Positions 1 to 15,104 of a stretch of DNA of 29,544 bases are shown piece after piece. The notes under the pieces were generated by a model. The model was given only the letters and a program-made list of their open reading frames with translations. It was not told the DNA's origin and ran no database searches. The stretch covers positions 1-29,544 of IMG/VR virus record IMGVR_UViG_3300046009_007651; one strand, given 5' to 3'. The position numbers and the translations under genes are program-made. The DNA is from a virus. How positions within the stretch are numbered: position 1 is the stretch's first letter; the number at the start of each line of letters is the position of its first letter.

Positions 1-2202
1 GAGATATTCTGTTTCACCACTTAATAATCTGGTGTATGCCTCACTACAACCTGAAGGATACTGATAGAATCCTAAACAATCTCCCGCAAACGCAGAACTG
101 CTCGAAATATTCAAAGAATTTATACAGCTAGAATAAGGACCTATTGGGGCTGTCATGTAATTCAAATAGAGTGTATTTTGATCTGACACACAATCAATTG
201 GCGGGGTAATGCTACCTGTTGATGTAAGAGTCAAACCTGACCATAAAACTGACTGAGGTCCCATAGATGATGGGAAACCTGCAGGTACCGGTAAACCTAT
301 AAATTGATTCGGCAATGTTGCCGCGACTGAAGCAGAATTACAAAATTTTGATTTGTTAGGGTTTCCACCAAATAACTTTTCTTTGTAATCCACATAAGTA
401 CTTGTGTTTATTAATGATTCATCATTTACATATCCCAAATATTCATTATTACCGACACTTAAGTAATAACCATCATTAGTTATAATTGCATTACTTAGTT
501 CAGACGGATCTTCACAAATATCAAACACAACACCTGCAGTGAGATAGGATGCGTTGATGGATCCGTCAATTGTTAATTGTGTAAAACCTGCAGGATTTGT
601 TATTGTTAATATAATTGATCCTTCAGCACTACCTGTGGTTGGGGTTGGGGGCGTTGTTGAAATAGTATTTCCCGATATTGTAATTTTACAATTAGCACAA
701 GAAGATAGTGTAGGAATCCCATTGTTTGTTGTAAAAGTGTAAGTTTCTGCAAAATTCTGCGATGGAACCCAACTCATATTAATAAAACGGATTGATATAG
801 ATTCTATTGAAGTTGCAAATGTCAAAGTGTAAACTCCGCCCGGAGGGCTACCATTTGGGACATTCCCCATAATTCCGCATGGATTTGTTGAGTCACCGAC
901 TATTGGGCACGGATCACTTGGTGAAACCGAGGATGGAAGTTCTTTTACTGCGTTGTATGGGATTGATGACCCAGTTATAGAAATACCATTCCAAGTTATA
1001 ACAGGATTAGTTTCAGGTATGGGTGGTGTAATAAAAGATGTACAACATTCAAAAAATGTGGGTGTTGGCGTGGGTGTTGGTGTGGGTGTTGGCGTAATTG
1101 TTGATGTAGGTGTAGGTGTTGGTGTTGGTGTTGGTGTTGGTGATGCTGGAGCACAAGTGTGGATTTGACATTCCCAACCACATTCTAAACAAGGTAACTG
1201 ACCACAACTACAACCACATTGTGGTGTTGGGTTTCCATTACAAACATTACAACCATAATTAACATGAGGATCATGTTGATTATTTTGCGATCTCGGCGGG
1301 TAAACATAAATACATCTACTATTTGTAACACCTGTATTACAACAAGCACAAGTCTCAATACAATTATAAAGAGGTGTTGTAACTCTTGTGTACCCACTGT
1401 AATTCCAAGGACTTCCGTTTGCATGATGATAAAATTTGTTTTCAGCTCTTGTACCCCAATAAAAAAATATGTTTTTATTTTGAGGGTAGATATCATTTAA
1501 AGTAGTTTGACCCGGACCTGGTTCATATTCATTTATCAATCTTGGCTTGAGTAACATCTCAACAGTCCAACCTTTATTTACCCTTTCAGGAAGAATTTCA
1601 TAATCATAACCAAAAAGTTTATAAAATCCTTGATAAAAACCTCCGTATAATTCGTGATATTTACCAACCGCAATATTATCTTTTGACACTACTTCGTATA
1701 GTGTTTGGTCCGTAATTGCCGAAAAACGATTATAAGTTCCAGTATACCCCGTAACTTGGAATAATTTCATCCTTCTATCAAAGTAAAATCTTTGGTATTT
1801 TAAGAAGTCGTTAAAAAGTCCGTTTGTAAATGTGATAGTTTCTCCTGTCATTTTATCAACAAGACCATTATCAATACCCGTCAAACCAATATCACATGCG
1901 GTCTCAACGTCAAAACAATCTATTCTTAAACCATCAGGTTCGTAATAATTTTGGGAAACAAATATATTACTCTTATCATAATTTCCATATGTAAGTGTCT
2001 TAGGAATCCAAGTTAATGGGTTATCAATATCATAATACACAGGTAATTTCTTCCCATATGTTTGAGCGATCAAATATGGAGAAAAAACTACCTCTTCATT
2101 AAAGCTTCTTTCGTCTGATGCTAATGACATATCTTGCCCATCGTAGATCAGTTGTAACTTTAATTTTTGGTAATTATATTGATTTATATTCTGATAAGCC
2201 AT
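1..2202 (-). CDS. Large Cys-rich virion/fibre-like protein with Pro-Thr linker, partial (C-terminus beyond left edge)
   Basis: An open minus-strand frame runs from ATG at 2202 to position 1 without a stop, giving the first 734 residues (start MAYQNINQYNYQKLKL). The N-terminal ~270 residues are rich in Tyr, Phe and Asn. The stretch around residues 215-265 (KGWTVEMLLKPR, then IFFYWGTR) resembles strands of a concanavalin/LamG-like jelly roll. Residues 281-350 hold 14 cysteines in pairs and triplets (for example CGCSCG and CLECGWEC). A 28-residue Pro-Thr run (355-382) follows, then ECC and a Gly/Ser/Thr-rich region of beta type. Pro-Thr runs are typical flexible linkers, so this is most likely a modular surface or tail-fibre protein. 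It is divergent from the gene at 2255, with late-type promoter motifs in the 52-base gap. The coding frame is certain; the role is inferred from composition and context. Confidence 0.82.
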   Translation of the reverse strand, partial: MAYQNINQYNYQKLKLQLIYDGQDMSLASDERSFNEEVVFSPYLIAQTYGKKLPVYYDIDNPLTWIPKTLTYGNYDKSNIFVSQNYYEPDGLRIDCFDVETACDIGLTGIDNGLVDKMTGETITFTNGLFNDFLKYQRFYFDRRMKLFQVTGYTGTYNRFSAITDQTLYEVVSKDNIAVGKYHELYGGFYQGFYKLFGYDYEILPERVNKGWTVEMLLKPRLINEYEPGPGQTTLNDIYPQNKNIFFYWGTRAENKFYHHANGSPWNYSGYTRVTTPLYNCIETCACCNTGVTNSRCIYVYPPRSQNNQHDPHVNYGCNVCNGNPTPQCGCSCGQLPCLECGWECQIHTCAPASPTPTPTPTPTPTSTITPTPTPTPTPTPTFFECCTSFITPPIPETNPVITWNGISITGSSIPYNAVKELPSSVSPSDPCPIVGDSTNPCGIMGNVPNGSPPGGVYTLTFATSIESISIRFINMSWVPSQNFAETYTFTTNNGIPTLSSCANCKITISGNTISTTPPTPTTGSAEGSIILTITNPAGFTQLTIDGSINASYLTAGVVFDICEDPSELSNAIITNDGYYLSVGNNEYLGYVNDESLINTSTYVDYKEKLFGGNPNKSKFCNSASVAATLPNQFIGLPVPAGFPSSMGPQSVLWSGLTLTSTGSITPPIDCVSDQNTLYLNYMTAPIGPYSSCINSLNISSSSAFAGDCLGFYQYPSGCSEAYTRLLSGETEYL
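1057..1140. repeat. Low-complexity GGTGTT-type repeat encoding a Pro-Thr linker
   Basis: Imperfect hexamer repeats (GGTGTT, GGTGTG, GGCGTN) on the plus strand read as alternating Pro and Thr codons in the minus-strand gene, residues 355-382, with one interruption (Ser-Thr-Ile). The repeat can change length by slippage in steps of six bases without breaking the frame. It also creates Gly-Val and His-Gln pseudo-ORFs in the other frames. Confidence 0.9.
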
Positions 2203-2211
2203 CGTTTTAAC

Positions 2212-2219
2212 TATAAATA
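2212..2219 (+). promoter_or_regulatory. T4-type late promoter motif TATAAATA
   Basis: This is an exact match to the T4 late -10 consensus. It ends 35 bases before the ATG at 2255, leaving room for a short leader. No -35 element is evident, as expected for gp55-dependent late promoters. A gp55-like sigma gene lies in the window at 15104. Confidence 0.55.
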
Positions 2220-2232
2220 CCACACATCAAAG

Positions 2233-2240
2233 TATTTATT
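2233..2240 (-). promoter_or_regulatory. Candidate divergent late promoter AATAAATA
   Basis: Read on the minus strand this is AATAAATA, one mismatch from TATAAATA. It lies 30 bases upstream of the ATG at 2202 and would drive the large partial gene. In AT-rich DNA a single-mismatch octamer is weak evidence on its own. Confidence 0.35.
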
Positions 2241-2254
2241 GTAAAAAAGTGAAC

Positions 2255-3139
2255 ATGTTAGAATTTGGAAAAGAATATTTTGAAAAGCCTTATTATTTTT
2301 ATCTTAAAGATAAAGGTGATAAATTTAGTGTTTATTATTCTGTATCGGAAACTATTAAGGAATCAAGAGAATCTGACGAAGAGGTTGAATTCTTAAAAGA
2401 AGATTTTAGTAAAATAATAAAATTCATAAAAAAACTTTTTAAATCAGGTAAAAAATTTACAAAAGAACAAATAAAAAAATTATTAAACTTTTTTAAATCT
2501 AAAGGGGATAAAAAAGTTGATGGTGAATTACAAGAATTTGTTGGTAGCGATGGATCATTTACCAATTCAAGTATACCAATGTTAAATCAAAGACTTGTTA
2601 CAAAAAATACAATGGATCAAACGGTTAAGATGACTAGAGCAAATCAGTTTCCATTTATAAGAGTGTACTATGGTGAATCTGAAGAAGAACAGGAAAATTT
2701 AATTGATGAAGTTGATATGTCCGATGCTTTTGGTTATGAAGAAACGAAAGAAGCCAAAAGTTATAAAGAAGCATCTAAAATATTAAAACAAATGGGGGTT
2801 GAAGATCCTTTTGAAAGAAATGAAAGATTAGAAACTATGGGATTTGATCCTGAATACGATAAACAATTAAATATGATCAAGAAAAAAGGTCATGGTAAAA
2901 ATTGGTTTACCAAAAGAAGATTGTCTGAGTTAGAAAAAGGAAAAATGGAAAAAATGATTGATGAAATTGTTTTAGGTAAAAAGAAAAAAAATGATGACAT
3001 AGTTAAAAAAACTAAAGATGAATCAGATTCTACTATGTCAAAATTGTTAATTAGAAACTTAGAATCCATCAAACATTTGGCAGACAAAGAAGGTTTGGAT
3101 ATAAGGGATTTATTAAAAAAAATTAAAGATAGTGAATAG
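2255..3139 (+). CDS. Unrecognised charged phage protein (294 aa)
   Basis: I do not recognise this family. The ATG at 2255 is chosen; an in-frame GTG two codons earlier (2249) is possible. The protein is highly charged. Residues ~40-85 form a Lys-rich amphipathic stretch (repeated FxKKLFK and KKLLNFFK). The middle contains an Asn/Thr-rich segment and an acidic one (ESEEEQENLIDEVD). The C-terminus is a predicted helix with a Leu/Ile pattern (LLIRNLESIKHLADKEGL). It is the first gene of a five-gene plus-strand unit behind a TATAAATA motif and overlaps the next gene by 8 bases. Expression timing is therefore probably late, and a virion or head-associated role is possible but not shown by the sequence. 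Confidence 0.75.
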   Translation: MLEFGKEYFEKPYYFYLKDKGDKFSVYYSVSETIKESRESDEEVEFLKEDFSKIIKFIKKLFKSGKKFTKEQIKKLLNFFKSKGDKKVDGELQEFVGSDGSFTNSSIPMLNQRLVTKNTMDQTVKMTRANQFPFIRVYYGESEEEQENLIDEVDMSDAFGYEETKEAKSYKEASKILKQMGVEDPFERNERLETMGFDPEYDKQLNMIKKKGHGKNWFTKRRLSELEKGKMEKMIDEIVLGKKKKNDDIVKKTKDESDSTMSKLLIRNLESIKHLADKEGLDIRDLLKKIKDSE

Positions 3140-3602
3140 TCAATTATACAATAAAACAATTGAATTACCTGAAGAGGTAACAAAGTATCTACAACAATGT
3201 TTTGATATGTTCCCAAATTCTGATCAATCAATTGAAGGTCATAAAAGGAATGAGGAATTAAGAAACAGTGGTTATGTCACATATCAACAATTAGGTAGGA
3301 TGAAAAATTGGTTTGATGGTTATAGAGGTGACGGTAAAGATGCTCCTTATATTTTAAATGGTGCGGATTATGTTAGAAATTGGGTAAATCAAACATTAAC
3401 AGATATGAGAAATGGTGATAATTTCTCTAATCAAACTAAACAAGATTTCGTACCTGACGAAGTAGGCGACGAATTAAAAGATAATTTAGGTTGGCTGGCA
3501 GATATGAATAGACCTTCAAAAGAACACAGTACATTTGTACAAGATATAAAATTGAAAGAAGACCTGCAAAGGATAAATTTAATAATGAAAAAAATAATTT
3601 AA
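3132..3602 (+). CDS. Unrecognised phage protein (156 aa)
   Basis: The start is a GTG at 3132, overlapping the end of the previous gene by 8 bases, which suggests translational coupling. The next Met is 24 codons in and would leave a gap. The protein has Trp-rich segments (MKNWFDGYRGDG, YVRNWVNQTL, LGWLADM) and looks like a compact soluble helical domain. No catalytic motif or membrane segment is visible and I do not recognise the family. Its place in a unit of small proteins between a large virion gene and a terminator suggests a late, possibly virion-related product. Confidence 0.75.
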   Translation: MNSQLYNKTIELPEEVTKYLQQCFDMFPNSDQSIEGHKRNEELRNSGYVTYQQLGRMKNWFDGYRGDGKDAPYILNGADYVRNWVNQTLTDMRNGDNFSNQTKQDFVPDEVGDELKDNLGWLADMNRPSKEHSTFVQDIKLKEDLQRINLIMKKII

Positions 3603-3603
3603 G

Positions 3604-3891
3604 ATGCCAGAAATTGAAAGATTGGACTATAGTCAACCCGCAAACGATTTAACAGCAATTGCGGATATTGAAAGAAAAAGATTAATTGTTAAAAATGATT
3701 ATTTAACATCTAATCAGTATTCTGCTGTTAATAAAGATGCCAAGTCGGATGGTGATGAATTTGGAAAAGGTACTGGTATTTTTTTAGATACTAGTAACGG
3801 TGGCTCAAGAACTGATAATTCGGAAAGAATCAGTGAAGTAAAATTAAATGAATATCAACCAAACAAACCTTATACCACACCGTCAGCATAA
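3604..3891 (+). CDS. Small polar unrecognised protein (95 aa)
   Basis: It starts one base after the previous stop, and its TAA overlaps the next ATG by one base (TAATG), so it is a tightly coupled member of the 2255-4890 unit. The product is polar and rich in Asp, Asn, Ser and Gly. It has a short helical N-terminal part (IADIERKRLIVKNDYL) followed by a probably disordered Gly/Ser/Asp-rich tail ending in YTTPSA. No family is recognised. Confidence 0.7.
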   Translation: MPEIERLDYSQPANDLTAIADIERKRLIVKNDYLTSNQYSAVNKDAKSDGDEFGKGTGIFLDTSNGGSRTDNSERISEVKLNEYQPNKPYTTPSA

Positions 3892-4289
3892 TGAAACTTT
3901 ACAATACATTCAAAAATCTTATTGTTGAGGTAGCCTCTATTGACAAAGTTGTGGATGCAATTAAAAGTAGGAAAAAAGTTGTAATTTATTATGATGGTGA
4001 TGAACCAGGTGGTAAAGGATTAAGAGTTATCGAACCTGTTTGTTACGGATATAGTAAATCGGATAATCCTGTTTTAAGAGCTTGGGATTATGAAGGAGCT
4101 TCACACACAGCGTATTTAGGTAAGAAACCTTTACCGGGTTGGAGATTGTTTAGAATTGATAAAATAACATACCTACAACCAACAGCGGAAGTTTTTAATG
4201 AGGTTAGACCAAATTACAACCCAAATGGGGATAGGAGTATGTCTAGAGTTATCATAAACGCAAAATTTGACACAGAAAACGAACAATAA
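3891..4289 (+). CDS. Lone WYL-like domain protein with capsid-targeting-like N-terminus (132 aa)
   Basis: Residues ~18-100 follow the WYL-domain pattern: a helix (VDAIKSRKKVVIYYDG), then RVIEPVCYGYSK, then VLRAWDYEG, and RLFRIDKITYLQPTAEVF at the end. WYL domains are usually ligand or nucleic-acid sensors joined to an HTH, but here there is no HTH or partner domain. The N-terminus, MKLYNTFKNLIVE|VAS, resembles the capsid-targeting peptides of T4 internal head proteins (recalled as MKTYQEFI-E) and contains I-V-E, which fits the [L/I]-x-E cleavage rule of gp21-type proteases. The ATG overlaps the previous stop by one base. WYL assignment is from pattern recognition; packaging in the head is an inference. 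Confidence 0.7.
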   Translation: MKLYNTFKNLIVEVASIDKVVDAIKSRKKVVIYYDGDEPGGKGLRVIEPVCYGYSKSDNPVLRAWDYEGASHTAYLGKKPLPGWRLFRIDKITYLQPTAEVFNEVRPNYNPNGDRSMSRVIINAKFDTENEQ

Positions 4290-4290
4290 T

Positions 4291-4890
4291 ATGAATAGTG
4301 AAAATGATTTAATTAAAAGATTAATGGTCTCTAAAAAAATAATGGAGAAACATGATCAAATGGGTAGAGGATCTCAGGACCCATTTAATTCGACACCAAT
4401 GTTAGAAAATTACCAACCTGTTAATGCTTCATATAATATACCTCAGGATATTTTACAGGAAGAACAAGTAAGACGACCTCAACAAGTTAATAATGAAGTC
4501 CCAACTGCGGACAGAATTGCAAATTCAAAATTACCTGATGAGATTAAAAGGTTAATGATGGAACACCCAATTGCACAACCAACAAGTTCATTAGGGGGAC
4601 CAACATTATCAACAGATTTAATAGATAAAGCGGCAAGATTAATGGCCGTTGATGCTAGTGGTAAACAAGTTTCAGAAACACCAAGAAGAAAAGAAAACAT
4701 AAATGAAAATTTAAACACACCTAACAATACAGGTTTAAAAGAAATGTTAAGAGAGGTTGTTGAGGAAGTTCTTTATGAAAATGGTTTAATTATGGAATCG
4801 GAGAGTAAATCTAATGAAATGTTTAAATTTAGAGTTGGTGATCACATATTTGAGGGTAAGGTCACTAAAATTAGAAAAGTATCAAAATAG
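4291..4890 (+). CDS. Unrecognised phage protein with central helix ending L-Y-E (199 aa)
   Basis: The start is placed at ATG 4291, one base after the preceding stop, rather than at an in-frame TTG 24 bases earlier. The N-terminal 140 residues are polar and low in structure (Asn, Pro, Gln, Ser). Residues 149-163 form an amphipathic helix (LKEMLREVVEEVLYE) like those in three other proteins of this window and end in L-x-E. The final ~25 residues (MFKFRVGDHIFEGKVTKIRKV) look like a small beta domain. It is the last gene of its unit, followed by a hairpin terminator. It may be a processed head or internal protein, but the family is unknown to me. Confidence 0.75.
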   Translation: MNSENDLIKRLMVSKKIMEKHDQMGRGSQDPFNSTPMLENYQPVNASYNIPQDILQEEQVRRPQQVNNEVPTADRIANSKLPDEIKRLMMEHPIAQPTSSLGGPTLSTDLIDKAARLMAVDASGKQVSETPRRKENINENLNTPNNTGLKEMLREVVEEVLYENGLIMESESKSNEMFKFRVGDHIFEGKVTKIRKVSK

Positions 4891-4913
4891 TCAAGTTCCT
4901 GACTTTTGTTCCA

Positions 4914-4938
4914 CCCACCCCAAAAAGGTGGGTTTTTT
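4914..4938 (+). terminator. Rho-independent terminator after the 2255-4890 unit
   Basis: The stem CCCACC (4914-4919) pairs with GGTGGG (4927-4932) across a 7-base loop and is followed directly by six T. It closes the upstream unit and separates it from the glycosyltransferase region. Confidence 0.85.
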
Positions 4939-4989
4939 GTTATTGATATTTCAAGTAAAAAGGTTTATTATTTTGATAAATTCTTAAAA

Positions 4990-6204
4990 ATGCAAAAAAT
5001 ACAAGTATTAGTTTTACCATCAGATAAAGCGGGTGTTGGTAGATATAGATCCGTAGATCCACACGTTAATCTACAAAATAATTTTCCACAAGAGTTTCAA
5101 ATCACAATTGATTATGAGCCAAAGTTACAAGATGAAAACTATTGGAAAAAATTCCAAATAGTACATTTCCATAGATCTATTGGTCAAGATTATGAATTAT
5201 GTTTAGAAATAATAAAAAAACTTAAGTCTTGGGGTATCGTGGTTGTTGGTGATATTGACGATTATTGGTTACCAACAAAAGAACACCCAATACATCAATT
5301 AATTGTATCTAACAAATTAAATGAAAAAATAATTGCAAATCTTAAAGCTTGTGATTATGTAATAACAACGACTGAATTATTCGCAATGGAAATTAAAAAA
5401 TTCAATAAAAACGTAGTTGTTTTTCCAAATGCGATAGACCCAAATGAACCACAGTTTAACGAACCTACTTTACCTTCGGAAAAAATTAGAGTTGGTTGGT
5501 TAGGAGGATCATCTCACTTACATGATCTTAAATTACTTGATGGTATGGTTTCTAAATTATCACCATTACAAGACAAACTTCAATATTATTTATGTGGTTT
5601 TGATACGAGAGGAGTTATCACTGAAATTAATCAAACAACAGGTGAGAAAAAAACAAGACCAATAAAACCCGAAGAAACCGTGTGGGTACAATACGAAAAA
5701 ATATTTACCAATAGTTACAATATAATTTCTCCAGAATATAAAACCTTTTTAGACCAATTCCAAGAGGGAGATTATCCGGCAATCCAAAATGAAAATTATG
5801 TTAGAGTTTGGACACGTCCTGTCGATTCATACGCAAGAAACTATTCAAAATTTGATATATCTTTAGCACCAATTAAAAACCACGTATTTAATAGACTTAA
5901 ATCACAATTAAAGGTTATTGAAGCTGGATTTTATAAAAAAGCATTAATTGCTTCAAATGTTGGCCCATATACAATTGATTTGAAAACCGCATATAGTAAT
6001 GGTAAATTTACTGATGGTAATGCCCTTTTAGTTGATGAGGTTAAATCACATAAAGATTGGTACTTATCAATTAAAAGATTAGTCGAAAACCCAAATATGA
6101 TACAAGATATGGGTGAAAGATTATATGAAACCGTTAAGGATCGATACGACCTAAATAAAGTATCAATAGAAAGAGCATCATTTTACAAATCTTTAATTAA
6201 ATAA
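4990..6204 (+). CDS. GT-B fold glycosyltransferase, GT4-like (404 aa)
   Basis: The start is placed at ATG 4990 (MQKIQVLVLPSDKAGVGRYR), because the frame extends upstream only through the terminator hairpin and would add an implausible MFHPPQKGG leader. The N-terminal half has the Rossmann-like pattern of GT-B enzymes (VHFHRSIGQD, VVVGDIDDYW, then TTTELFAMEIKKF and VVFPNAIDP). The C-terminal half opens with RVGWLGGSSHLHDL, a typical GT4 nucleotide-sugar half, and continues with FDISLAPIKNHVFNRLKS and KVIEAGFYKKALIASNVGP, where the Glu matches the usual EA element. It should transfer a sugar from a nucleotide donor in the cytoplasm; donor and acceptor cannot be told. It is the first gene of a long plus-strand unit. 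Confidence 0.85.
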   Translation: MQKIQVLVLPSDKAGVGRYRSVDPHVNLQNNFPQEFQITIDYEPKLQDENYWKKFQIVHFHRSIGQDYELCLEIIKKLKSWGIVVVGDIDDYWLPTKEHPIHQLIVSNKLNEKIIANLKACDYVITTTELFAMEIKKFNKNVVVFPNAIDPNEPQFNEPTLPSEKIRVGWLGGSSHLHDLKLLDGMVSKLSPLQDKLQYYLCGFDTRGVITEINQTTGEKKTRPIKPEETVWVQYEKIFTNSYNIISPEYKTFLDQFQEGDYPAIQNENYVRVWTRPVDSYARNYSKFDISLAPIKNHVFNRLKSQLKVIEAGFYKKALIASNVGPYTIDLKTAYSNGKFTDGNALLVDEVKSHKDWYLSIKRLVENPNMIQDMGERLYETVKDRYDLNKVSIERASFYKSLIK

Positions 6205-6207
6205 GTT

Positions 6208-6933
6208 ATGATTAATATCCCAATTACAAAAATTTTATTCTTAGATATAGAAACCGTTGGTGGTTGTGCGGATTACCAAACGTGTATTAAATCAAACCCA
6301 AGAGTTGCCGAACAATTTGATAAGTACTTCGATTGGTTTTTGAAAAGATTCCCCGAAGATAAAGAATGGGGTGAAGGTAGAACAACTGAAGAACATATGG
6401 ATATTGTCTTTAGAAAAAGAGCAGCTCTTGTTCCTGAATTTGCAAAAATTGTATGTGTTTCTATGGCATTTGTTTTAGATAACGGTGAAACAAAAAAACA
6501 AACATTCTCAGGTGATGATGAACATACATTACTTTTAGAAGTAAGAGATCTTTTAAATCGATGCCACAAATTAGATTTTTATCTTTGTGGTCATAATCTT
6601 AAAAACTTTGATATCCCTATGTTGGCAAAACGAATGATTGTTAATGGGATTATGCCATCAAAGATTCTTCCTTCATATGATACGAAACCTTGGGAGGTAA
6701 AAGCAATTGACACAAAAGAAATTTGGCAGTATGGTGCATACACGGCAATTGGTTCATTAGATTTAATGTGTGCTTGTTTAGACATTCCTACACCAAAAGA
6801 TGGTGAGGTAAATGGGGGTATGGTTCACGAAGCATACTGGAGTCACAATAAACTGAAAGAAATATCAGACTATTGTGAAAGAGATGTTGAGGTTTTGATT
6901 GATGCAATTATGAAATTAAAAAGTTTAAAATAA
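6208..6933 (+). CDS. DnaQ-like 3'-5' exonuclease, DEDDy type (241 aa)
   Basis: All three exonuclease motifs of the RNase H-like DEDD superfamily are visible: Exo I FLDIETVG (D13, E15), Exo II CGHNLKNFDIPML (D135) and Exo III YCERD (Y222, D226), the YX3D form that defines the DEDDy class. There is no polymerase domain, so this is a stand-alone nuclease similar to the predicted PolB-type exonuclease family. It would degrade DNA or RNA from the 3' end, perhaps in repair, recombination or host DNA breakdown. The gap to the upstream glycosyltransferase is 3 bases, and its stop overlaps the dUTPase ATG by one base, so it is co-transcribed and probably coupled with dUTPase. Confidence 0.88.
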   Translation: MINIPITKILFLDIETVGGCADYQTCIKSNPRVAEQFDKYFDWFLKRFPEDKEWGEGRTTEEHMDIVFRKRAALVPEFAKIVCVSMAFVLDNGETKKQTFSGDDEHTLLLEVRDLLNRCHKLDFYLCGHNLKNFDIPMLAKRMIVNGIMPSKILPSYDTKPWEVKAIDTKEIWQYGAYTAIGSLDLMCACLDIPTPKDGEVNGGMVHEAYWSHNKLKEISDYCERDVEVLIDAIMKLKSLK

Positions 6934-7532
6934 TGAGTGAGGATTTTAATAACGAAGAGAATGACCTAATAGATGATTTATTAAAATCATTTGATATTAA
7001 TGACATTGATAAAGTTGAGTTAGATGGATTGAACGATTATTTTGGTTTTGATGTTTTAAGTTTAGAAAAAGAAATGGAAAACTACCAAGACACCTTAGAG
7101 TTTAGATTTTCAAAATCAAATGACGACGCTAAAGACCCAAAATATGCGTACACATCGGATTCAGGATTTGATTTATATTCGGTAGAAGATAAATGGATCC
7201 ATCAAAATGATAGAGCATTAATTTCAACAGGATTACATTTAGACATTCCTGAAGGGTATGAAGTACAAGTAAGATCAAAAAGTGGATTGGCAATTAATCA
7301 AGGTCTTTTTGTATTAAACTCACCAGGAACGGTTGATGAAGGATACACAGGAGAAATTAAAGTTATTTTATTTAACACTACTAAAGAAAAAATTAAAATA
7401 CAAAAAGGTCAAAAAATTGCCCAAGCAGTCCTTTGTCCTGTTGTTAGCGGCAAATGGATATCGTTTGTTCAAGTTGATGACGTTAACTCTAAAGATAGAA
7501 ATGAAAATGGATTTGGTTCTACCGGAATATAA
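6933..7532 (+). CDS. dut: Trimeric dUTPase with acidic N-terminal extension (199 aa)
   Basis: All five dUTPase motifs are present in order: I SDSGFDLYS (75-83), II RSKSGLA (114-120), III GTVDEGYTGEIKV (132-144) with the catalytic Asp, IV GQKIAQAVL (159-167) and V RNENGFGSTG (189-198). The enzyme converts dUTP to dUMP and pyrophosphate, keeping uracil out of phage DNA and supplying dTMP precursor. It is longer than the usual ~150 aa because the first ~50 residues are a very acidic segment (EENDLIDDLL and after) that belongs to none of the motifs. The ATG overlaps the exonuclease stop. Confidence 0.95.
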   Translation: MSEDFNNEENDLIDDLLKSFDINDIDKVELDGLNDYFGFDVLSLEKEMENYQDTLEFRFSKSNDDAKDPKYAYTSDSGFDLYSVEDKWIHQNDRALISTGLHLDIPEGYEVQVRSKSGLAINQGLFVLNSPGTVDEGYTGEIKVILFNTTKEKIKIQKGQKIAQAVLCPVVSGKWISFVQVDDVNSKDRNENGFGSTGI

Positions 7533-7551
7533 AATTAAAATAATATAAATA

Positions 7552-9072
7552 ATGATAACTATAGGGTTTTCAACAAGAAAAACAGACTCTGATTTTTTAA
7601 CTCACCTACAAAAATCTTGCGGTTCTAAAAAATTACAAATAATAGAAAAAGTAAACAATGGTGAAAAATCTTTGGCTAAAGTTTATAATGAAATTTTAAA
7701 TGAAGCTGAAAATGATATTGTTGTTTTTTGTCACGATGATATAGAGTTTGACACAAAAAATTGGGGTGAAAAATTAATCAAACTTTTTAAAAGGAATGAA
7801 GAGTACGGAATACTTGGTATTGCCGGTACAACAGATATGATAGATGGTAGATGGTGGTCAATGAGACAATCAATGACAGGTATTGTATCTCATAAACACG
7901 ATGGTAAAAAATGGACTAACACATATTCACCTGATCAAGGAAATAAAATAAAAGAAGTTGTTGTACTTGATGGTTTATTTTTTTGTGTTGATAAAAGAAA
8001 AATTAAACAAAATTTTGATGAAGATTTTGATGGGTTCCATTTTTATGAGATACCATTTTGTTTTGCAAATCATGTTGATGGTGTTAAACTTGGTGTAACA
8101 ACATTAATAAGAGTAACTCATAAATCTATTGGTATGACTAATGATCAATGGGAACAAAACAAGGTAAAATTTGAATCTAAATATGGTTCTCATTTACCAA
8201 TAAGACTTTCTGATAATAAAACATTGGAGGAAAAATCGACTATGGATATTGATAAAGTTGGTTTAGGTATGGTTACATACAACGCAGAACATAGGATATT
8301 ACAAAGTTCATTTACGGTCCCGAAGTGGATTAAAAATTTTGTAATCGTTAATGATGGTACACCATATGACTCAAGTTCTTACCCTGAACACGCACACATA
8401 ATCCAACACGAAACAAATCAATGTGTTGGGGCCGCAAAAAACACGGCTATGAAATATTTGATGGATTTAGGATGTGAACACATATTCCTTATGGAAGACG
8501 ATATCTTAATTAAAGATGAAAAAGTTTTTGAAGAATATATTAGACATTCTGCGATTTCAGGTATAAAACATTTAAATTTCGCATTACACGGTCCCGCTAA
8601 TAGAAAAGGATATACCGCATTTAGAGATTTATCTGAAAGACAAGATAGTAATGATGAACCAAACCCAAGAGCAATAATTCCATATCCTGAAGGAATTAAA
8701 ATTGCCTTCTATCCTAATTGTGTTGGGGCATTTTCATATTATCACAGATCTGTATTAGAAAAAATTGGTTTATTCGATCCTATGTTCAAAAATGCTTGGG
8801 AACACGTAGAACATACTTACCAAGCAATAAAAAATAATTTTCACCCCCCTTTTTGGTATTTTGCCGATATTGATAATAGTTGGGATTATTTAAATGACAT
8901 CCCAAATTCAATCCAAAATTCAACTATTGCAAGAACTCCAGAATGGAATGAGAACTTCAAAAAAAGTACGATGTGGTATAAAAAGAAACACGGAGTTACG
9001 CCATCTGAAATTCCTTTAATGGATTTTCAATCAGCACAAAAAATAATAAGTAATCTTTATATGTTAAGGTAA
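7552..9072 (+). CDS. Tandem two-domain GT-A glycosyltransferase (506 aa)
   Basis: Two GT-A-like domains are fused. Domain 1 (~1-215) matches the StrF-like/Glyco_tranf_2_5 pattern: ITIGFSTRK, NNGEKSLAKVYNEILNEA, then the acidic metal site VFCHDDIEF (HDD at 61-63) and VLDGLFFCVDKR. Domain 2 (~235-506) is GT2-like, with GMVTYNAEHRILQ, VIVNDGTPYD, CVGAAKNTAM and a second acidic site FLMEDDILI. Each domain keeps an Asp-Asp motif, so both may be active and add successive sugars. The sequence TATAAATA abuts the start codon, too close to serve as its promoter. The gene is followed after one base by another GT2 gene. The acceptor is unknown. Confidence 0.85.
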   Translation: MITIGFSTRKTDSDFLTHLQKSCGSKKLQIIEKVNNGEKSLAKVYNEILNEAENDIVVFCHDDIEFDTKNWGEKLIKLFKRNEEYGILGIAGTTDMIDGRWWSMRQSMTGIVSHKHDGKKWTNTYSPDQGNKIKEVVVLDGLFFCVDKRKIKQNFDEDFDGFHFYEIPFCFANHVDGVKLGVTTLIRVTHKSIGMTNDQWEQNKVKFESKYGSHLPIRLSDNKTLEEKSTMDIDKVGLGMVTYNAEHRILQSSFTVPKWIKNFVIVNDGTPYDSSSYPEHAHIIQHETNQCVGAAKNTAMKYLMDLGCEHIFLMEDDILIKDEKVFEEYIRHSAISGIKHLNFALHGPANRKGYTAFRDLSERQDSNDEPNPRAIIPYPEGIKIAFYPNCVGAFSYYHRSVLEKIGLFDPMFKNAWEHVEHTYQAIKNNFHPPFWYFADIDNSWDYLNDIPNSIQNSTIARTPEWNENFKKSTMWYKKKHGVTPSEIPLMDFQSAQKIISNLYMLR

Positions 9073-9073
9073 A

Positions 9074-9757
9074 ATGGTAGTAGATGTAATAATATTAAGT
9101 TATGCCAAAGATAGTTCTTTGGAAAAGATGAATTTAGAGTGTATGCAAAGTTTGTACAATAGTACAAATGAACACAAATTCCAAATTTGGATGGTTGAGA
9201 CTAACAAGGACAAAGAATTTGTCTACCCTGGTTGTGAAACTTGTAAAGTCATTCAACCTGAAGAAGAGTTCAACTATAATAAATTTTTAAATATTGGGTT
9301 AAAAAATTGTACCAACGAATGGATTTTAATATCAAATAATGATACTATCTATTATCCAAACTTTTTGGAGGAGATGTTGTCCGCAAATGAAAAAGACCCT
9401 ACTCTAATGTCAATGTCGCCTATGGATGACACTTGGCACAGACATAAAACTTTTAATAAAAATGTAGACATACATTATGGACATAGAACATCATATGAAA
9501 TTGCAGGATGGTCAATACTGGTTAAAAGAGAAGTGTTAGAAAAAATGGGTAATTTTGATGAACAGTTCGAATTTTGGTATCAAGATAATGATTATGCATT
9601 TACATTACAAAAGTTTGGTTATAAACATGCATTAGTTACAAAATCTAAAGTTAAACATTTACTTAGTAAAAGTCATAACTTAATAGATAGAAGTAAAAAG
9701 TATAAAATGACTGATGGTTTAATCGTCAATTTACAAAATAAATGGTTTAAAAAATAA
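9074..9757 (+). CDS. GT2-family glycosyltransferase (227 aa)
   Basis: The N-terminus VDVIILSYAKDSSLEKM is a typical GT2 opening (beta strand, then SYNR-like segment). SNNDT (87-91) stands where the metal-binding DxD lies, AGWSILVKREVLEKMGNFDE is the usual acceptor-side segment, and WYQDNDYAFTLQKFGYK contains the acidic general-base region. Length is normal for a single GT-A domain. It starts one base after the tandem GT and is followed 4 bases later by a methyltransferase. It probably acts in the same glycan pathway as its neighbours; substrate is not predictable. Confidence 0.85.
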   Translation: MVVDVIILSYAKDSSLEKMNLECMQSLYNSTNEHKFQIWMVETNKDKEFVYPGCETCKVIQPEEEFNYNKFLNIGLKNCTNEWILISNNDTIYYPNFLEEMLSANEKDPTLMSMSPMDDTWHRHKTFNKNVDIHYGHRTSYEIAGWSILVKREVLEKMGNFDEQFEFWYQDNDYAFTLQKFGYKHALVTKSKVKHLLSKSHNLIDRSKKYKMTDGLIVNLQNKWFKK

Positions 9758-9761
9758 AAAA

Positions 9762-10337
9762 ATGTTAACAATTAAAGAATACTACGAAAATTTTAAAAAT
9801 AAACAAGGTGATATTAATGAACATCTACCAACGTTAAAAAAATACGCACAAAAATGTGACCACGTTACTGAAATGGGAGCAAGATGGGGATGCTCAACGT
9901 TTGCACTACTTTCAGGAAAACCAAAAAAAATTGTTAGTTATGACATTAAAGAACACGAAAACATTACAAGGGCAAAAGAATTAGCAAAAAAAGAAAAATT
10001 AAATTTTGAATTTATTCAAAAAAACGTACTTCAAGTTAAGATAGAAGAAACTGATCTTTTATTTATCGATACTTGGCATAAGTACGGTCAATTAAAAGAA
10101 GAATTAAGATTACATAAGAATAAGGTAAGAAAATATTTAGTTTTTCACGATACAGAATCTTATGAATTTAAAGATGAACCAGATTGGGGTGGTTTATACA
10201 AAGATATAAAACCATTATCAACAGAAAAAAAAGGAATTTGGCCCGCAATTCAAGAATTATTAGACGAAGGTAATTGGGAAATTGAAGAGAGGTTTAAAAA
10301 CAATAATGGATTAACTATTTTAAAAAGAAAAAAATGA
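9762..10337 (+). CDS. Class I SAM-dependent methyltransferase, Methyltransf_24-like (191 aa)
   Basis: The SAM-binding glycine loop is seen in TEMGARWGCSTFAL (residues ~36-49), with the acidic strand-2 residue in VSYDIKEHENI and a strand-4 segment LLFIDTWHKYGQLKEEL. That last pattern is typical of the Methyltransf_24/cephalosporin hydroxylase-like group, which often act on sugars in glycan clusters. The position between two glycosyltransferases and another methyltransferase fits sugar O-methylation. It overlaps the next gene by 4 bases (ATGA). The substrate is an inference from context. Confidence 0.78.
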   Translation: MLTIKEYYENFKNKQGDINEHLPTLKKYAQKCDHVTEMGARWGCSTFALLSGKPKKIVSYDIKEHENITRAKELAKKEKLNFEFIQKNVLQVKIEETDLLFIDTWHKYGQLKEELRLHKNKVRKYLVFHDTESYEFKDEPDWGGLYKDIKPLSTEKKGIWPAIQELLDEGNWEIEERFKNNNGLTILKRKK

Positions 10338-10909
10338 TAACTGAAGAAAAAATTTTAAATGAAAACAATGTAGGTAAATGGGATTCTTGGTACAAAAATC
10401 TACCCGATAATCCATCAGAATTTAGATATGGTCAAACAGAAACATACCAATTAGCATCCGAATTTTTAAAAGATTGTGAAGTTGTTGAAGATTGGGGATG
10501 TGGTGCTGGTGGTTTTTTAAGATATAGAGAAGACGCAATTGGTGTAGATGGTAGTGATACTAAATTTGCAACAAAAAAGTTTATAGATCTAACCAAGTAT
10601 GTTTCAGAATGTGATGGAATCAATATTAGACACGTATTCGAACATAATTACAATTGGTCTTCCATTCTTGAAAATTCTTTAAAATCGGCGAAAAAGAAAA
10701 TTTGTATAACAATGTTTGTCCCTTTATCCGAAACAACAGAAGAAATAAGTCATAATTTACCACATGGAGTTGATGTACCTGATTTAAGAATTTCTAAAAA
10801 AGAATTTATGGATATAATAAATAAATTTTCACCAAAATCAGTCGACTCAGTTCTTTTGAATACCGCAACAGGTTATGGTATGGAAGAAATTATTTACATA
10901 ACAATGTAA
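10334..10909 (+). CDS. SAM-dependent methyltransferase, Methyltransf_11/23-like (191 aa)
   Basis: Motif I is clear in VVEDWGCGAGGFLRY (residues ~50-64), followed by AIGVDGSDTKFA (acidic residue at the end of strand 2) and IRHVFEHNYNW, which matches the usual [S/R]xVxEH segment of this superfamily. The start overlaps the previous methyltransferase gene by 4 bases, suggesting coupled translation. Together with that gene it gives the unit two different methyltransferases. Likely acceptors are sugars added by neighbouring enzymes, but protein or small-molecule targets cannot be excluded. Confidence 0.78.
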   Translation: MITEEKILNENNVGKWDSWYKNLPDNPSEFRYGQTETYQLASEFLKDCEVVEDWGCGAGGFLRYREDAIGVDGSDTKFATKKFIDLTKYVSECDGINIRHVFEHNYNWSSILENSLKSAKKKICITMFVPLSETTEEISHNLPHGVDVPDLRISKKEFMDIINKFSPKSVDSVLLNTATGYGMEEIIYITM

Positions 10910-10912
10910 TAA

Positions 10913-11581
10913 ATGAAAAAAAAAGTTCGTATCGTTACCGCTGATTTTGGAAATCATATTGAGGGATTTAACCCAAAATTACCCCATCAACTTACAAAAA
11001 ATTTTGAAGTGTCTTTTTCGGTTTATAATGATAACAACACTCCAAGTAGGTCTTTATCACTACACCCAAGATTAAAAGGTAAAATTCCAAAAATGTTAGA
11101 ATGGATGGAGTTTGATGCCGATTATTATTTTTGGGTAGACTCTAAATTCAAAATAACATCAAATAATTTTGTGGAAGAAGTTATTCATAATTTGGGAGAT
11201 GCCGATTTTGGTCTCATGAAACACCCAAGTAGAAAAAGTATACTTTCCGAATTAGAGTATATGGAACATGCGATGTCAGAAGAAAAAGAAGAATACCTGA
11301 TAAATAGATATACGGGTGAAAATATGAGAAATCAAGTTGAGTCTTATATTAAGACTGATGGATTTGTAGACGATAAATTATTTGCAATGGGATTTTTTGT
11401 ATACACAAAAAAAGTTATTGAAAATAAAGAATGGAATATAATGAAAGATTGGTTTTTCCAAAACACATATTGGTCAATACAAGATCAACTATCCTTTCCT
11501 TTTTTACTTTCTAAACATAATATTAATTATAAGGTTTTTGATTTTCACCTTTTCAGTAACTCATATATCAAATGGGGTTAA
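10913..11581 (+). CDS. DUF616/TOD1-MUCI70-like putative glycosyltransferase (222 aa)
   Basis: The sequence follows the pattern I associate with DUF616 glycosyltransferases: PRLKGKIPKMLEWMEFDADY then YFWVDSKFKI (the acidic WVD site near 77-80), FGLMKHPSRKSILSELEYM, a Gly-Phe-Phe strand (MGFFVYTKKVIEN), and DQLSFPFLLSKHNINYKVF near the C-terminus. Length fits one GT-A-like domain. It lies 3 bases after the second methyltransferase gene and is the last member of the central glycan block before phoH. Family assignment is by motif order only. Confidence 0.7.
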   Translation: MKKKVRIVTADFGNHIEGFNPKLPHQLTKNFEVSFSVYNDNNTPSRSLSLHPRLKGKIPKMLEWMEFDADYYFWVDSKFKITSNNFVEEVIHNLGDADFGLMKHPSRKSILSELEYMEHAMSEEKEEYLINRYTGENMRNQVESYIKTDGFVDDKLFAMGFFVYTKKVIENKEWNIMKDWFFQNTYWSIQDQLSFPFLLSKHNINYKVFDFHLFSNSYIKWG

Positions 11582-11598
11582 AAATTTAAATAAAAAAA

Positions 11599-12336
11599 AT
11601 GACACAAAGAAAAAAAAGTATAACACCAACAGAGGAAAATAACCCAACACCTATCAATAAAAGAGATATCATTTCACAGGTAGTAAAACGAAGACCAAAA
11701 GGAAAGTTTTTAACTGAAAACCAAAAAATTTATTACGAAACGTTATTAAATAATCAAATAACAATTTGTTCAGGTCCTGCGGGAGTTGGTAAAAGTTATA
11801 TCGCAATGAAAACAGCGGTAGATCTTTTATTAGATGATGGAAATGGTTATGACAAAATTATTATCGTAAGACCGGCAGTAGAAGCCGAAGAAAAATTAGG
11901 GGCGTTACCTGGTAATTTAGAAGAAAAATTAGATCCTTATATTTTTCCATCATATTATCTATTAAATAAAATAATCGGTAAAGAAGTCAGAGAAAAACTT
12001 AAAGATGCCGAAATTATTGAAGTTTTTGCTTTAGCTTATATGAGAGGTATGACCATCGACAATTCAATTTTAATTTTTGAAGAGGCTCAAAATGCGACCC
12101 CAAAACAAATGAAACTTCTTTTAACAAGAATAGGTACAAATAGTAAATTTTTCATTTCAGGTGATATTGAGCAAACCGACAGATACAAAGATAAAACACA
12201 CTCAGGTCTTTACGACGCATTAACAAGATTTAATAGCATACCTGGCGTTGGCATTTTTGAATTTGGAGATAAGGACGGTGTTAGAAATCCCATAATAACA
12301 AAAATACTCAAACGATATGAAGAAGATAGGGATTGA
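11599..12336 (+). CDS. phoH: PhoH-like ATPase (245 aa)
   Basis: Walker A GPAGVGKS is at residues 59-66 and Walker B LIFEEAQN at ~158-165. The flanking PhoH signatures IIVRPAVEAEEKLGALPG, LAYMRGMTIDNS and FFISGDIEQTDR are all present. PhoH-like proteins are RNA-linked P-loop ATPases common in marine and other T4-like phages; their phage function is unsettled. The ~35-residue N-terminus is polar and Lys/Thr/Pro-rich. The 3' end overlaps the next gene by 20 bases. Confidence 0.95.
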   Translation: MTQRKKSITPTEENNPTPINKRDIISQVVKRRPKGKFLTENQKIYYETLLNNQITICSGPAGVGKSYIAMKTAVDLLLDDGNGYDKIIIVRPAVEAEEKLGALPGNLEEKLDPYIFPSYYLLNKIIGKEVREKLKDAEIIEVFALAYMRGMTIDNSILIFEEAQNATPKQMKLLLTRIGTNSKFFISGDIEQTDRYKDKTHSGLYDALTRFNSIPGVGIFEFGDKDGVRNPIITKILKRYEEDRD

Positions 12337-12979
12337 TATTAATGGAGTTTTAAGAGATACTATTGGTAAATTTTCACAACTTTATGAAAAACATTTTATT
12401 GACTCAATCGATGAACCATATTTAGGTCAAACTTTTGAATTAGATATTTCAGGTAATACCGAATTAATTGTTGAGGAAGAAGTTAAATTTAAATATGAAA
12501 AAATTTCTGAGGTTACTTCTTTAGAATTAGACAAACATTTCTCTTTTCAAAATAAAGAAGAATTATTTGATTTTATGTATGAAGAATATGCTATGGAGTT
12601 GTTTGGTCATTCACCGTCTTCTGAATTATTAACATTTAATATACTTAATGAATTATATTTAAACTTAAGAGACGATCATAATTTTATTATAATCTCAAAC
12701 GAGATCTCTAAATCTAAACCAGCATCATTATTTTTCCTATCAAAATTTGGGTGTTTATTAGAGAAAGTTATGTTTTATAATGAAAAAACAAAAAATGATA
12801 TGTGGGATGAAGTAGACATTTTACTTACATCAAATCCAACATTACTTTTAAATAAACCGTCCAATAAGACTTTAGTAAAATATAAAACATCTTATAATGA
12901 GGGTATTGGTTCTGATTATGAAATTTCTTCACTATCAGAATTTGAAAAAATAATTTCAGAAATAGAAAAAAATGATTAA
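12317..12979 (+). CDS. HAD-superfamily-like protein with altered motif I (220 aa)
   Basis: The N-terminus KKIGIDINGVLRDTIGKF matches HAD motif I of the nucleotidase-like group (normally DxDGVLxD). D7 is kept, but the second Asp, the usual general acid/base, is Asn9. Motif II fits IIISNEISKSKP, and the later DEVDILLTSNPTLLLNKP resembles the motif IV region. A large insert or cap (residues ~35-110) is acidic. The family dephosphorylates nucleotides or other phosphates, but the D-to-N change makes normal phosphatase activity doubtful. It overlaps phoH by 20 bases and the next gene by 8, so expression is coupled. Confidence 0.65.
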   Translation: MKKIGIDINGVLRDTIGKFSQLYEKHFIDSIDEPYLGQTFELDISGNTELIVEEEVKFKYEKISEVTSLELDKHFSFQNKEELFDFMYEEYAMELFGHSPSSELLTFNILNELYLNLRDDHNFIIISNEISKSKPASLFFLSKFGCLLEKVMFYNEKTKNDMWDEVDILLTSNPTLLLNKPSNKTLVKYKTSYNEGIGSDYEISSLSEFEKIISEIEKND

Positions 12980-13226
12980 AATTTTAAATAACAACTATTA
13001 CTTAGATTTAGACAAATTGGATGAGGAATTACAAATTGAAGGTTCATCTGGTGAAACTCAAATTCATTTAGTTAAATACGAAGTAGTAAAAATGTTACTT
13101 GACACGATACTGACTGAAGTTGAGCAAGTTGACGAAACATTAGGTGATAAGAGTAATGAATTAACAATACCATTCAAATTGGCATTCAATACACTTTTAT
13201 TTAAAAAAATAATAAACAAAATATAA
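12972..13226 (+). CDS. Small unrecognised protein (84 aa)
   Basis: It overlaps the HAD-like gene by 8 bases and ends 8 bases before the next gene. The product has a short N-terminal beta-like part (MIKILNNNYYLDLDKLDEEL) and two predicted helices (IHLVKYEVVKMLLDTILTEV and IPFKLAFNTLLFKKIINKI). It has no membrane segment of convincing length and no known motif. Operon position and compact, well-formed sequence support it being a real gene; function unknown. Confidence 0.7.
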   Translation: MIKILNNNYYLDLDKLDEELQIEGSSGETQIHLVKYEVVKMLLDTILTEVEQVDETLGDKSNELTIPFKLAFNTLLFKKIINKI

Positions 13227-13234
13227 ATTAAGAT

Positions 13235-14296
13235 ATGACTAACGAACAAATACAAAAATTAGAATTATCTATTTTGAACCTAAAAGAAAAAAAATCAAGG
13301 GTTTATTTTATGGTTCAAGATACTAAAGGTAATGCAAAGGCGTCTGTTAAATACATTTATCAAATGGCGATGTCTCTCAAAAAAAATGGATTTAACCCAA
13401 TAATGTTACATGAGAAACCAGAATATCATGGTGTTTCAGATTGGATGGGTGAAGAATATATGTTACTAGAACACAGACCGATTGAAGGTACTAATTTAGA
13501 AATTTCTCCTGATGATTTAATTGTTGTACCTGAACTTTATGGGTTTGTAATGGATCAAATCACAAAATTACCTTGTGGTAAAATTGTTTTAAGTCAATGT
13601 TATGACTACATATTTGAAACTTTACAACCAGGTCAGACCTGGAGTAATTTAGGGTTTTTGAAATGTATTACAACTTCCGAAAAACAAAAAGAATATTTAG
13701 AGGGAGCTATGAGAAGCGTTTCCTTTGACGTGATTCAACCGACAGTTTCTGATTTGTTTGTAAAAAGCGAATATCCTGCTAAAACTATTATTAACATCCA
13801 CACTAGAGATCATAGAGATACTATAAATCTAATTAAACATTTTTACGCAAAATTCCCTCAATATAGATGGATTACGTTTAGAGATTTAAGAGGTTTAACA
13901 GAAACTCAATTTGCTGAAGCAATGAAAGAAAGTTTTGTGTCTGTTTGGATCGACCAACAAAGTTCATACGGAACTTTCCCATTAGAGTCTATGAAAATGG
14001 GAATTCCTGTAATTGGGTTAGTTCCCGATGTTGTACCTTCTTGGATGAGTGAAAATAATGGTATATGGATTAATAATAAAACAATTATAACTGACGTTAT
14101 TTCTGACTTTATCCAAAATTGGCTTGAGGACAACATCAATCCTCAATTACTTGAAGAAATGGAAAATACCGTAAAAACTTTACCTTCGTTAGAAGATTTT
14201 GAATCGGAAGTGGTTAGCATTTTCTCTAAGTTTTTTGAGACAAGATTAGAAAATTTTGTAATTCAGTTAGATAAATTTCAAACAATAGAAGAATAA
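13235..14296 (+). CDS. GT-B-like glycosyltransferase, GT4-type C-terminus (353 aa)
   Basis: The N-terminal half has a Rossmann-like pattern (RVYFMVQDTKGNAKASVKYI, then LIVVPELYGFVMDQI and GKIVLSQCYDYIF). The C-terminal half carries WIDQQSSYGTFPLESMKMGI followed by PVIGL, the Glu-containing nucleotide-sugar motif of GT4-type enzymes, and INIHTRDHRDTINLIKHF at the domain junction. The last ~70 residues form a helical, acidic tail. It would transfer a sugar in the cytoplasm. It is followed one base later by a GT-A-like gene, so the two probably work together. Donor and acceptor are unknown. Confidence 0.78.
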   Translation: MTNEQIQKLELSILNLKEKKSRVYFMVQDTKGNAKASVKYIYQMAMSLKKNGFNPIMLHEKPEYHGVSDWMGEEYMLLEHRPIEGTNLEISPDDLIVVPELYGFVMDQITKLPCGKIVLSQCYDYIFETLQPGQTWSNLGFLKCITTSEKQKEYLEGAMRSVSFDVIQPTVSDLFVKSEYPAKTIINIHTRDHRDTINLIKHFYAKFPQYRWITFRDLRGLTETQFAEAMKESFVSVWIDQQSSYGTFPLESMKMGIPVIGLVPDVVPSWMSENNGIWINNKTIITDVISDFIQNWLEDNINPQLLEEMENTVKTLPSLEDFESEVVSIFSKFFETRLENFVIQLDKFQTIEE

Positions 14297-14297
14297 T

Positions 14298-15104
14298 ATG
14301 GAAAATATAAATACAATTTCAGTAGTGTTGCCGATTAAGAGTTCTTCGGCATTAAGTTTCGAAGATTTTTTCGAAAAATGTATAAAATCAGTACAATACC
14401 AAAAAGAGAATGTTGATGAATTAGTGATCGTATATTGTAATGAGACTAATTTAGAAAAACACGTAACATCTTATGACTATGATGGTTTGAATGTTGTTTT
14501 TGAAAAATATGAAGGGACTCCAAGTTTCCAAAAACAAGTAAATCACGGTGTAAAAGTTGCGTCCTCTAATTGGATTAGTGTATTAGAGTTTGACGATGAA
14601 TTCTCTAATATTTGGTTTAAAAATGCTCGTAAATATATGGACATTTATAGAGACGTTGAGGTGTTTTTACCAATAGTAGTTGATGTTGATGATAAAGCAG
14701 TTTTTGCTGGATTTACTAACGAGGCCACATTTGCAGCCAACATTTCATCCGAGATTGGGATTCTTTCAAATGAAACATTACAAAATTTCCAAAACTTTCA
14801 ATTTTCAGGATGTGTTTTCAAAAAAGAAATGTTTGAGAAATTAGGTGGTCTTAAATCTAATATGAGATTAACATTTAACTATGAATTATTTTTAAGATTG
14901 ACTCATAACTCTGTTAAAATTATGTCGATCCCTAGAGTTGGTTACAAACATATGAATTTGAGAGAAGGGTCAATTTTTTGGAATTACAAAAATGGTGAGA
15001 ATAAAATTTCGGAAGATGAAGCGAGATTTTGGATCGAGTCCGCTAAAAAAGAATATTTCTTTACAGTAGAAAGGGATATAAATTATGAGCCCCAAAGTGT
15101 TTAA
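14298..15104 (+). CDS. GT2-like (GT-A) glycosyltransferase (268 aa)
   Basis: The N-terminus TISVVLPIKSSSALSFEDFF is a GT2-type first strand and loop. ELVIVYCNET is the second strand, and SNWISVLEFDDEFSNIWF holds the acidic metal site (FDDEF). FSGCVFKKEMFEKLGGLK is the typical segment before the catalytic acidic residues (NYELFLRLTH). The stop shares its last base with the sigma gene start (TAATG), so translation of the two is probably coupled. It is the last recognisable glycosyltransferase of the unit. Confidence 0.8.
   Translation: MENINTISVVLPIKSSSALSFEDFFEKCIKSVQYQKENVDELVIVYCNETNLEKHVTSYDYDGLNVVFEKYEGTPSFQKQVNHGVKVASSNWISVLEFDDEFSNIWFKNARKYMDIYRDVEVFLPIVVDVDDKAVFAGFTNEATFAANISSEIGILSNETLQNFQNFQFSGCVFKKEMFEKLGGLKSNMRLTFNYELFLRLTHNSVKIMSIPRVGYKHMNLREGSIFWNYKNGENKISEDEARFWIESAKKEYFFTVERDINYEPQSV

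Follow-up and report, generated by a model that had tools for sequence, protein, structure and literature searches.

Bacteria use the WYL fold in stress and defence regulators, and the locus described here raises the question of what a lone WYL domain does in a late-type unit of a phage, where its N-terminus resembles that of the T4 internal proteins (IPs). The stretch of DNA analysed (the window) is a virus fragment of 29,544 bases. The WYL protein occurs in a large family of uncultured T4-like giant phages, and its N-terminal tag suggests that it is packed inside the head and delivered to the host with the DNA.

The WYL gene and its family

The gene and its parts were delimited as follows.

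3891 to 4289, plus strand: gene for a WYL-domain protein of 132 amino acids (aa); its ATG and the stop codon of the upstream gene overlap (TAATG)
3891 to 3929, plus strand: putative capsid-targeting tag MKLYNTFKNLIVE, codons 1 to 13, with a predicted cut after E13
3939 to 4178, plus strand: WYL domain proper, residues 17 to 96 (Pfam match 17 to 96; strands of the model at 28 to 101; Foldseek)
4206 to 4268, plus strand: subfamily C-terminal motif RPNYNPNGDRSMxxVIxxAxF, residues 106 to 126, common to bacterial lone WYL proteins

The open reading frame is not a chance one, since 57 homologs were obtained from one IMG/VR scan (on contigs of up to 322 kb) and at least 577 from a profile scan. Its product consists of one WYL domain, with no second domain and no HTH, and the presence of the WYL domain is in our judgement practically certain. 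Taken by itself, the window copy lies under the Pfam cut-off for WYL (PF13280; E 0.0052, 17.2 bits against a cut-off of 21.8); the profile matched 25 of 26 homologs, with a best E of 1.8e-5, and the copies in 4 of 12 contigs exceeded the curated cut-off. The WYL assignment is therefore secure despite the sub-cut-off window copy, because the family-wide matches settle the question. PADLOC WYL models also matched (1.3e-6 and 3e-6), and NCBIfam and PHROGs gave nothing useful for the protein.

Structure prediction with AlphaFold on alignment A1 (pLDDT 83, pTM 0.76) gave a single N-terminal helix followed by six strands. A sequence search of the PDB returned no relative of the protein, and relatives were found by the fold search alone: the top 11 Foldseek matches were all PafBC, DriD or BrxR, each with a probability of 1.00, although the best E was only about 2e-3. 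Pfam across the family, PADLOC and the fold search thus agree with the initial annotation, which had read a single WYL-like domain without HTH and had proposed structure prediction and a profile search as checks. Among the 26 homologs, R45, R63 and R88 were invariant and C51 and R85 were conserved in at least 90%. The refined WYL domain has been defined by basic residues and a frequent cysteine lining a groove, to which these five residues may correspond, and WYL_2 (formerly DUF2693) has been placed in the same superfamily (PMC4012209). WYL_2 is likewise a small Sm-like SH3-barrel domain, and one homolog matches it weakly (E 0.27), but the phage family fits PF13280 much better. PafBC, DriD, BrxR and CapW share the WYL fold with the phage protein (Foldseek probability 1.00), but they possess an HTH and often further domains, whereas the phage protein is one WYL domain only. 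Some homologs of 226-227 aa (loci L003-L020) are extended at the C-terminus by some 95 residues.

The late cassette and the head genes

The WYL gene belongs to a five-gene cassette with the following elements.

2212 to 2219, plus strand: T4-type late-promoter-like box TATAAATA, upstream of the cassette
2232 to 2239, minus strand: matching late-promoter-like box ATAAATAC, facing the tail-fibre-like gene
2249 to 3139, plus strand: o2249, first cassette gene, ATG start probably at 2255, accompanying the WYL gene in 52 of 57 loci (alignment A3)
3132 to 3602, plus strand: o3132, cassette gene, in 53 of 57 loci
3604 to 3891, plus strand: o3604, directly upstream of the WYL gene and overlapping it, in 57 of 57 loci
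4291 to 4890, plus strand: o4267, last cassette gene, ATG at 4291, in 55 of 57 loci (alignment A4)
4913 to 4933, plus strand: intrinsic terminator after the cassette, a GGTGGGT stem with a T run

Nearly all 57 loci, among them many contig ends, keep one gene order: tail-fibre-like gene (opposite strand), o2249, o3132, o3604, WYL gene, o4267. The two facing boxes occupy the gap between the divergent units (2212-2239) and are present in most relatives. Of 29 distinct upstream regions, 22 contain ATAAATA, which occurs in 6% of random stretches. Behind the cassette, the 14 relatives listed likewise have a hairpin with a T run after it. With its conserved membership, T4-type late box, terminator and fixed synteny, the unit fits the late type that had been proposed for it. 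Searches with o2249, o3604 and o4267 found no relative in isolated phages, and the cassette could therefore not be placed. The neighbours of the WYL gene had no PHROG match, and its neighbourhood in the phages is not that of any known defence or anti-defence system. Elsewhere in the window, the tail-fibre-like open reading frame (1-2223, minus strand) contains PTPTPTP repeats at 996-1168 (minus strand), and the segment from the late cassette to the baseplate-like genes (4906-15104, plus strand) holds several putative glycosyltransferase reading frames and two that look methyltransferase-like, as read from sequence.

Since PafBC and other WYL proteins contact RNA polymerase, a regulator that acts late in the cytoplasm, for instance on late transcription, was considered. 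PafBC is among the best fold matches, its complex with RNA polymerase included, and a sigma-like gene lies at 15104-15847 (a weak match, E 0.031). The WYL protein has no DNA-binding domain, however, its gene is co-transcribed with late structural-type genes, and a regulator of this kind would leave the shared tag unexplained; we regard it as improbable.

In the window and in its relatives the cassette has tail-fibre and baseplate-like genes for neighbours and is outside the head cluster. The head genes in the window are as follows.

24542 to 26425, minus strand: T4 gp23-type major capsid protein (phrog_138, 1e-65)
26459 to 28009, minus strand: probable scaffold, acidic, in a gp22-like position between the protease and capsid genes, with no PHROG or other family match
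28369 to 29097, minus strand: T4 gp21-type prohead core protease (Peptidase_S77, 5e-22, 78.7 bits against a cut-off of 27; phrog_207, 1e-41), which aligns with T4 gp21

The capsid protein of T4, gp23, is cut after residue 65, as given by its propeptide length (PMC5694885), and SFLINE/ATS of the window capsid protein aligns with SFLTE/AEI of gp23 (the slash marking the cut), from which a cut site in the former may be predicted. An S77 protease above the cut-off was found in 11 of 12 tagged contigs as well as in the window, and none was found in the twelfth (a 191 kb contig). Another window gene on the minus strand (23087-24181) encodes a protein with a mid-located KLTESDIRRIVMRVLKE motif and a Cys/Lys-rich segment.

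The N-terminal tag

The WYL protein of the window begins with MKLYNTFKNLIVE, followed by VAS, and T4 IPII and IPIII begin with MKTYQEFIAE/A, as read from the T4 record. K2, Y4, F7 and I-x-E are common to both, the window tag being three residues longer (13 residues as against 10). In T4 IPIII, targeting depends on residues 4 and 7 and processing on residues 8 and 10 (PMC9026906), and these have their counterparts in Y4, a mostly hydrophobic residue 7, I11 and E13 of the WYL tag. When 92 unique homologs were reduced to 60 distinct N-terminal 16-mers, 58 of them beginning with M, E13 was present in all 60. Within the 58, position 11 was I in 54 and L in 4, position 12 varied (L, V, T, N, F, S, I), position 4 was Y in 45 and position 15 was A in 55. 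A prohead-protease site of the I/L-x-E kind would be expected to look like this, with P3 and P1 constant and P2 free. An I-x-E sequence can arise by chance, and the tag might instead be a membrane- or partner-binding helix. To our knowledge, CTS function has been demonstrated only in T4.

In six relatives of 187 to 322 kb, 2161 gene N-termini were scored with a matrix built from the WYL tag, with 7894 internal Met as control. Twelve N-termini reached 15 bits or more, against none of the internal Met, and the pattern with E at position 13 was matched by 22 of the 2161 N-termini, against 2 of the 7894. Six of these 22 were WYL proteins and the others were different genes, some of them mutual orthologs; gene starts were taken from a simple gene caller, so individual tagged cases may be wrong. 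Once the first 15 residues were removed, the tagged bodies were unrelated by blastp and phmmer, except for two WYL proteins and one LRR-bearing family. They include LRR-bearing proteins of 452-662 aa, a 531 aa family, a 245 aa protein, a DUF2237 protein of 304 aa (1e-36) and a 161 aa protein that matched ART-PolyVal at 6e-6 (27.4 bits, under the cut-off of 31.2) on a contig that also holds a WYL copy. The initial likening of the first 13 residues to a T4 internal-protein leader is accordingly upheld, both by the matching positions and by the recurrence of the tag on unrelated proteins. The idea that WYL resemblance and tag are both chance matches could draw on the sub-cut-off window copy and on the Foldseek E of about 2e-3, but the concurrence of family-wide matches, two libraries and the fold search, together with the tag statistics, refutes it for practical purposes.

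Further N-termini of this sort were seen in the relatives. One 276 aa protein (G007, 131610-132440) has two copies of the tag, one N-terminal and one internal (NLQESIRRILREE), like two tagged proteins fused. The same contig has a cluster at 128147-136481 (L233, L234) of mostly unrelated genes starting MNLQExIKKILREE or similar, one of them ADP-ribosyltransferase-like. At least 8 paralogous LRR proteins starting MKKIKLTESDLYRIVRKVLLEQ or a near variant are spread over the 256 kb contig G005 (loci L076-L088); this abundant N-terminus was rejected as a tag on many proteins because its carriers are LRR paralogs of one family. A recurrent N-terminus MK(I/L)IITE(S/N)QYxxLxE occurs in tandem runs at 313405-316657 of G004 and 153750-166707 of G002 (L074, L096, L097), with some differing bodies, and might be another type of packaging tag.

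The tag also behaves as an addition to the domain. About 140 residues are inserted between tag (MRLLESLTGLIIE) and WYL domain in one contig (L053-L055), and the lone WYL proteins of bacteria that belong to the same subfamily (97-102 aa, 32-39% identical to the phage protein) are without it. The latter begin at the equivalent of window residue 16-17, about three residues past the predicted cut, so that a cut after E13 would leave a near-bacterial form. Lone WYL proteins of about 97-102 aa from bacterial and archaeal plasmids or prophages have the same single domain and an RPxYNPN-D type C-terminal motif, but no N-terminal tag, and some lie beside nuclease or ATPase defence genes. In three phages of 635-735 kb, the domain forms part of proteins of about 300-418 aa without a tag, and the S77 matches there are weak and sub-threshold, in contrast to the clear S77 proteases of the tagged contigs. 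None of the isolated phages searched carries the WYL protein; in Flavobacterium phage immuto, a near annotated isolate by its capsid protein, the protease is present and a WYL copy was not found. To judge from near isolates, the hosts of the group are probably freshwater Bacteroidota. A match in Bacillus paralicheniformis (L327) was set aside, as no WYL-like reading frame lies at the match position.

These observations bear on a possible role of the protein in the tail, baseplate or neck, as a component or assembly factor that uses its Sm-like SH3 barrel structurally and keeps the N-terminal helix uncut for packing or oligomerisation. This is the main rival to packaging, given that the cassette is flanked by tail-fibre and baseplate-like genes both in the window and in its relatives. 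The WYL gene is kept in almost all contigs, as structural parts are, and the AlphaFold helix extends over residues 2 to 26. On the other hand, its residues 1-10 are modelled with low confidence (pLDDT 61), the tag is common to unrelated proteins and detached from the WYL domain in one homolog, and the bacterial relatives do without it. We consider such a structural role rather doubtful.

Proposed role and relation to known systems

The account that we prefer is that the WYL protein would be synthesised late in infection, that its 13-residue tag would bind the prohead core, and that the gp21-type (S77) protease of the phage would cut after E13 (I/L-x-E, before x-A), leaving a bare WYL domain from about V14 that resembles the bacterial lone WYL proteins. 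The mature protein would remain with the packaged DNA and enter the host alongside it. Other WYL domains bind nucleic-acid or nucleotide ligands, and in the host the basic groove may bind a ligand of this kind. Packaging, cleavage, injection and ligand are all steps that we infer. Late synthesis, head targeting, a cut after E13 and host entry together make the best account, with a probability of about 0.62, and the head-targeting and cleavage it invokes explain why E13 is constant, why unrelated bodies carry the tag and why the bacterial relatives lack it. To judge by sequence, the tag probably directs head packaging with processing; that the mature protein reaches the host we put at even odds.

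Nearly all the relatives examined have the WYL gene, and in the same gene order, whereas the T4 IP genes vary between phages (PMC9026906). Constancy and synteny favour a core, DNA-associated role and weaken a purely anti-defence one, yet the same near-universal conservation counts against a packaged protein of the T4 IP type, just as a head protein is disfavoured by the tail-fibre and baseplate-like genes next to the cassette. A core DNA-associated head protein is the most likely role, with action on host WYL-type defence as a possible addition; an anti-defence role as such is unlikely.

The T4 IPs are the classical internal proteins. Ip1-3 have only a leader in common, are injected and inhibit Type IV restriction (PMC12373910). 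IPI, IPII and IPIII likewise carry a short N-terminal MK-x-Y-x-x-F...I-x-E tag on otherwise unrelated proteins, and T4 and the WYL phage both have a gp21-type protease and a gp23-type capsid protein. The cargo here is a WYL domain, its gene sits in a conserved structural-type operon, unlike the T4 IP genes, and its packaging is a prediction. Among giant phages, the ejection proteins SPN3US gp53/gp54 and phiKZ gp93 are diverged paralogs whose N-terminal 15-mer is identical and contains a protease site; in phiKZ gp93 the cut is at SLE-13 (PMC5694885). Their bodies are paralogs (34% identical), whereas the tagged bodies described here are unrelated.

The initial annotation had known of no described example. 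For the lone phage WYL protein this does not stand, as ORF40 of Limnohabitans phage DC31 is annotated as a WYL-domain protein (PMC12195039) and BFVD entry A0A6J5RNM4, from an uncultured Caudovirales phage, as 'WYL domain containing protein'; it does hold for a packaged or tagged one, of which a literature search with most subscription journals outside its reach found no description. Within the same reach, the common tag across unrelated proteins of these giant phages was not found described either, and what is new here is the recurrence of a 13-residue tag on many unrelated proteins of the same phages. If the WYL protein is packaged, it would, as far as the literature searched shows, be the first known case of virion delivery of a WYL domain. 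The shared tag would then allow the head-packaged proteins of several hundred uncultured giant phages to be listed by a sequence rule, and the old question of which proteins these phages inject would become testable.

The contexts of the bacterial relatives bear on whether the phage protein is a packaged or early-acting decoy that disturbs WYL-regulated or lone-WYL defence of the host. A same-subfamily relative in Deinococcus pDrdII adjoins an OLD/GajA-like nuclease, one in Aliarcobacter lies in an operon with SbcD-like, LmuB-like, PDC-S06 and NucC-like genes, and the injected T4 Ip1-3 offer a precedent in inhibitors that share nothing beyond a leader (PMC12373910). Clearly defence-like contexts were, however, confined to 2 of the 9 bacterial relatives examined, the others being mixed or unannotated, and the phage gene is a conserved core gene, in contrast to the variable T4 IPs (PMC9026906), so a decoy seems to us an unlikely reading. 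More speculatively, and with slighter odds, these giant phages may load unrelated effectors (WYL, ADP-ribosyltransferase-like, LRR and others) by one 13-residue tag, the bare WYL domain released at DNA entry competing with or hijacking host lone-WYL sensors of OLD- or Lamassu-like defence.

The bacterial lone WYL genes in defence-type operons, at 5001-5294 of L328 and 956-1246 of L329 (with LmuB-like, PDC-S06 and NucC-like genes or an OLD/GajA-like nuclease), possibly encode a single-domain component of unrecognised defence systems.
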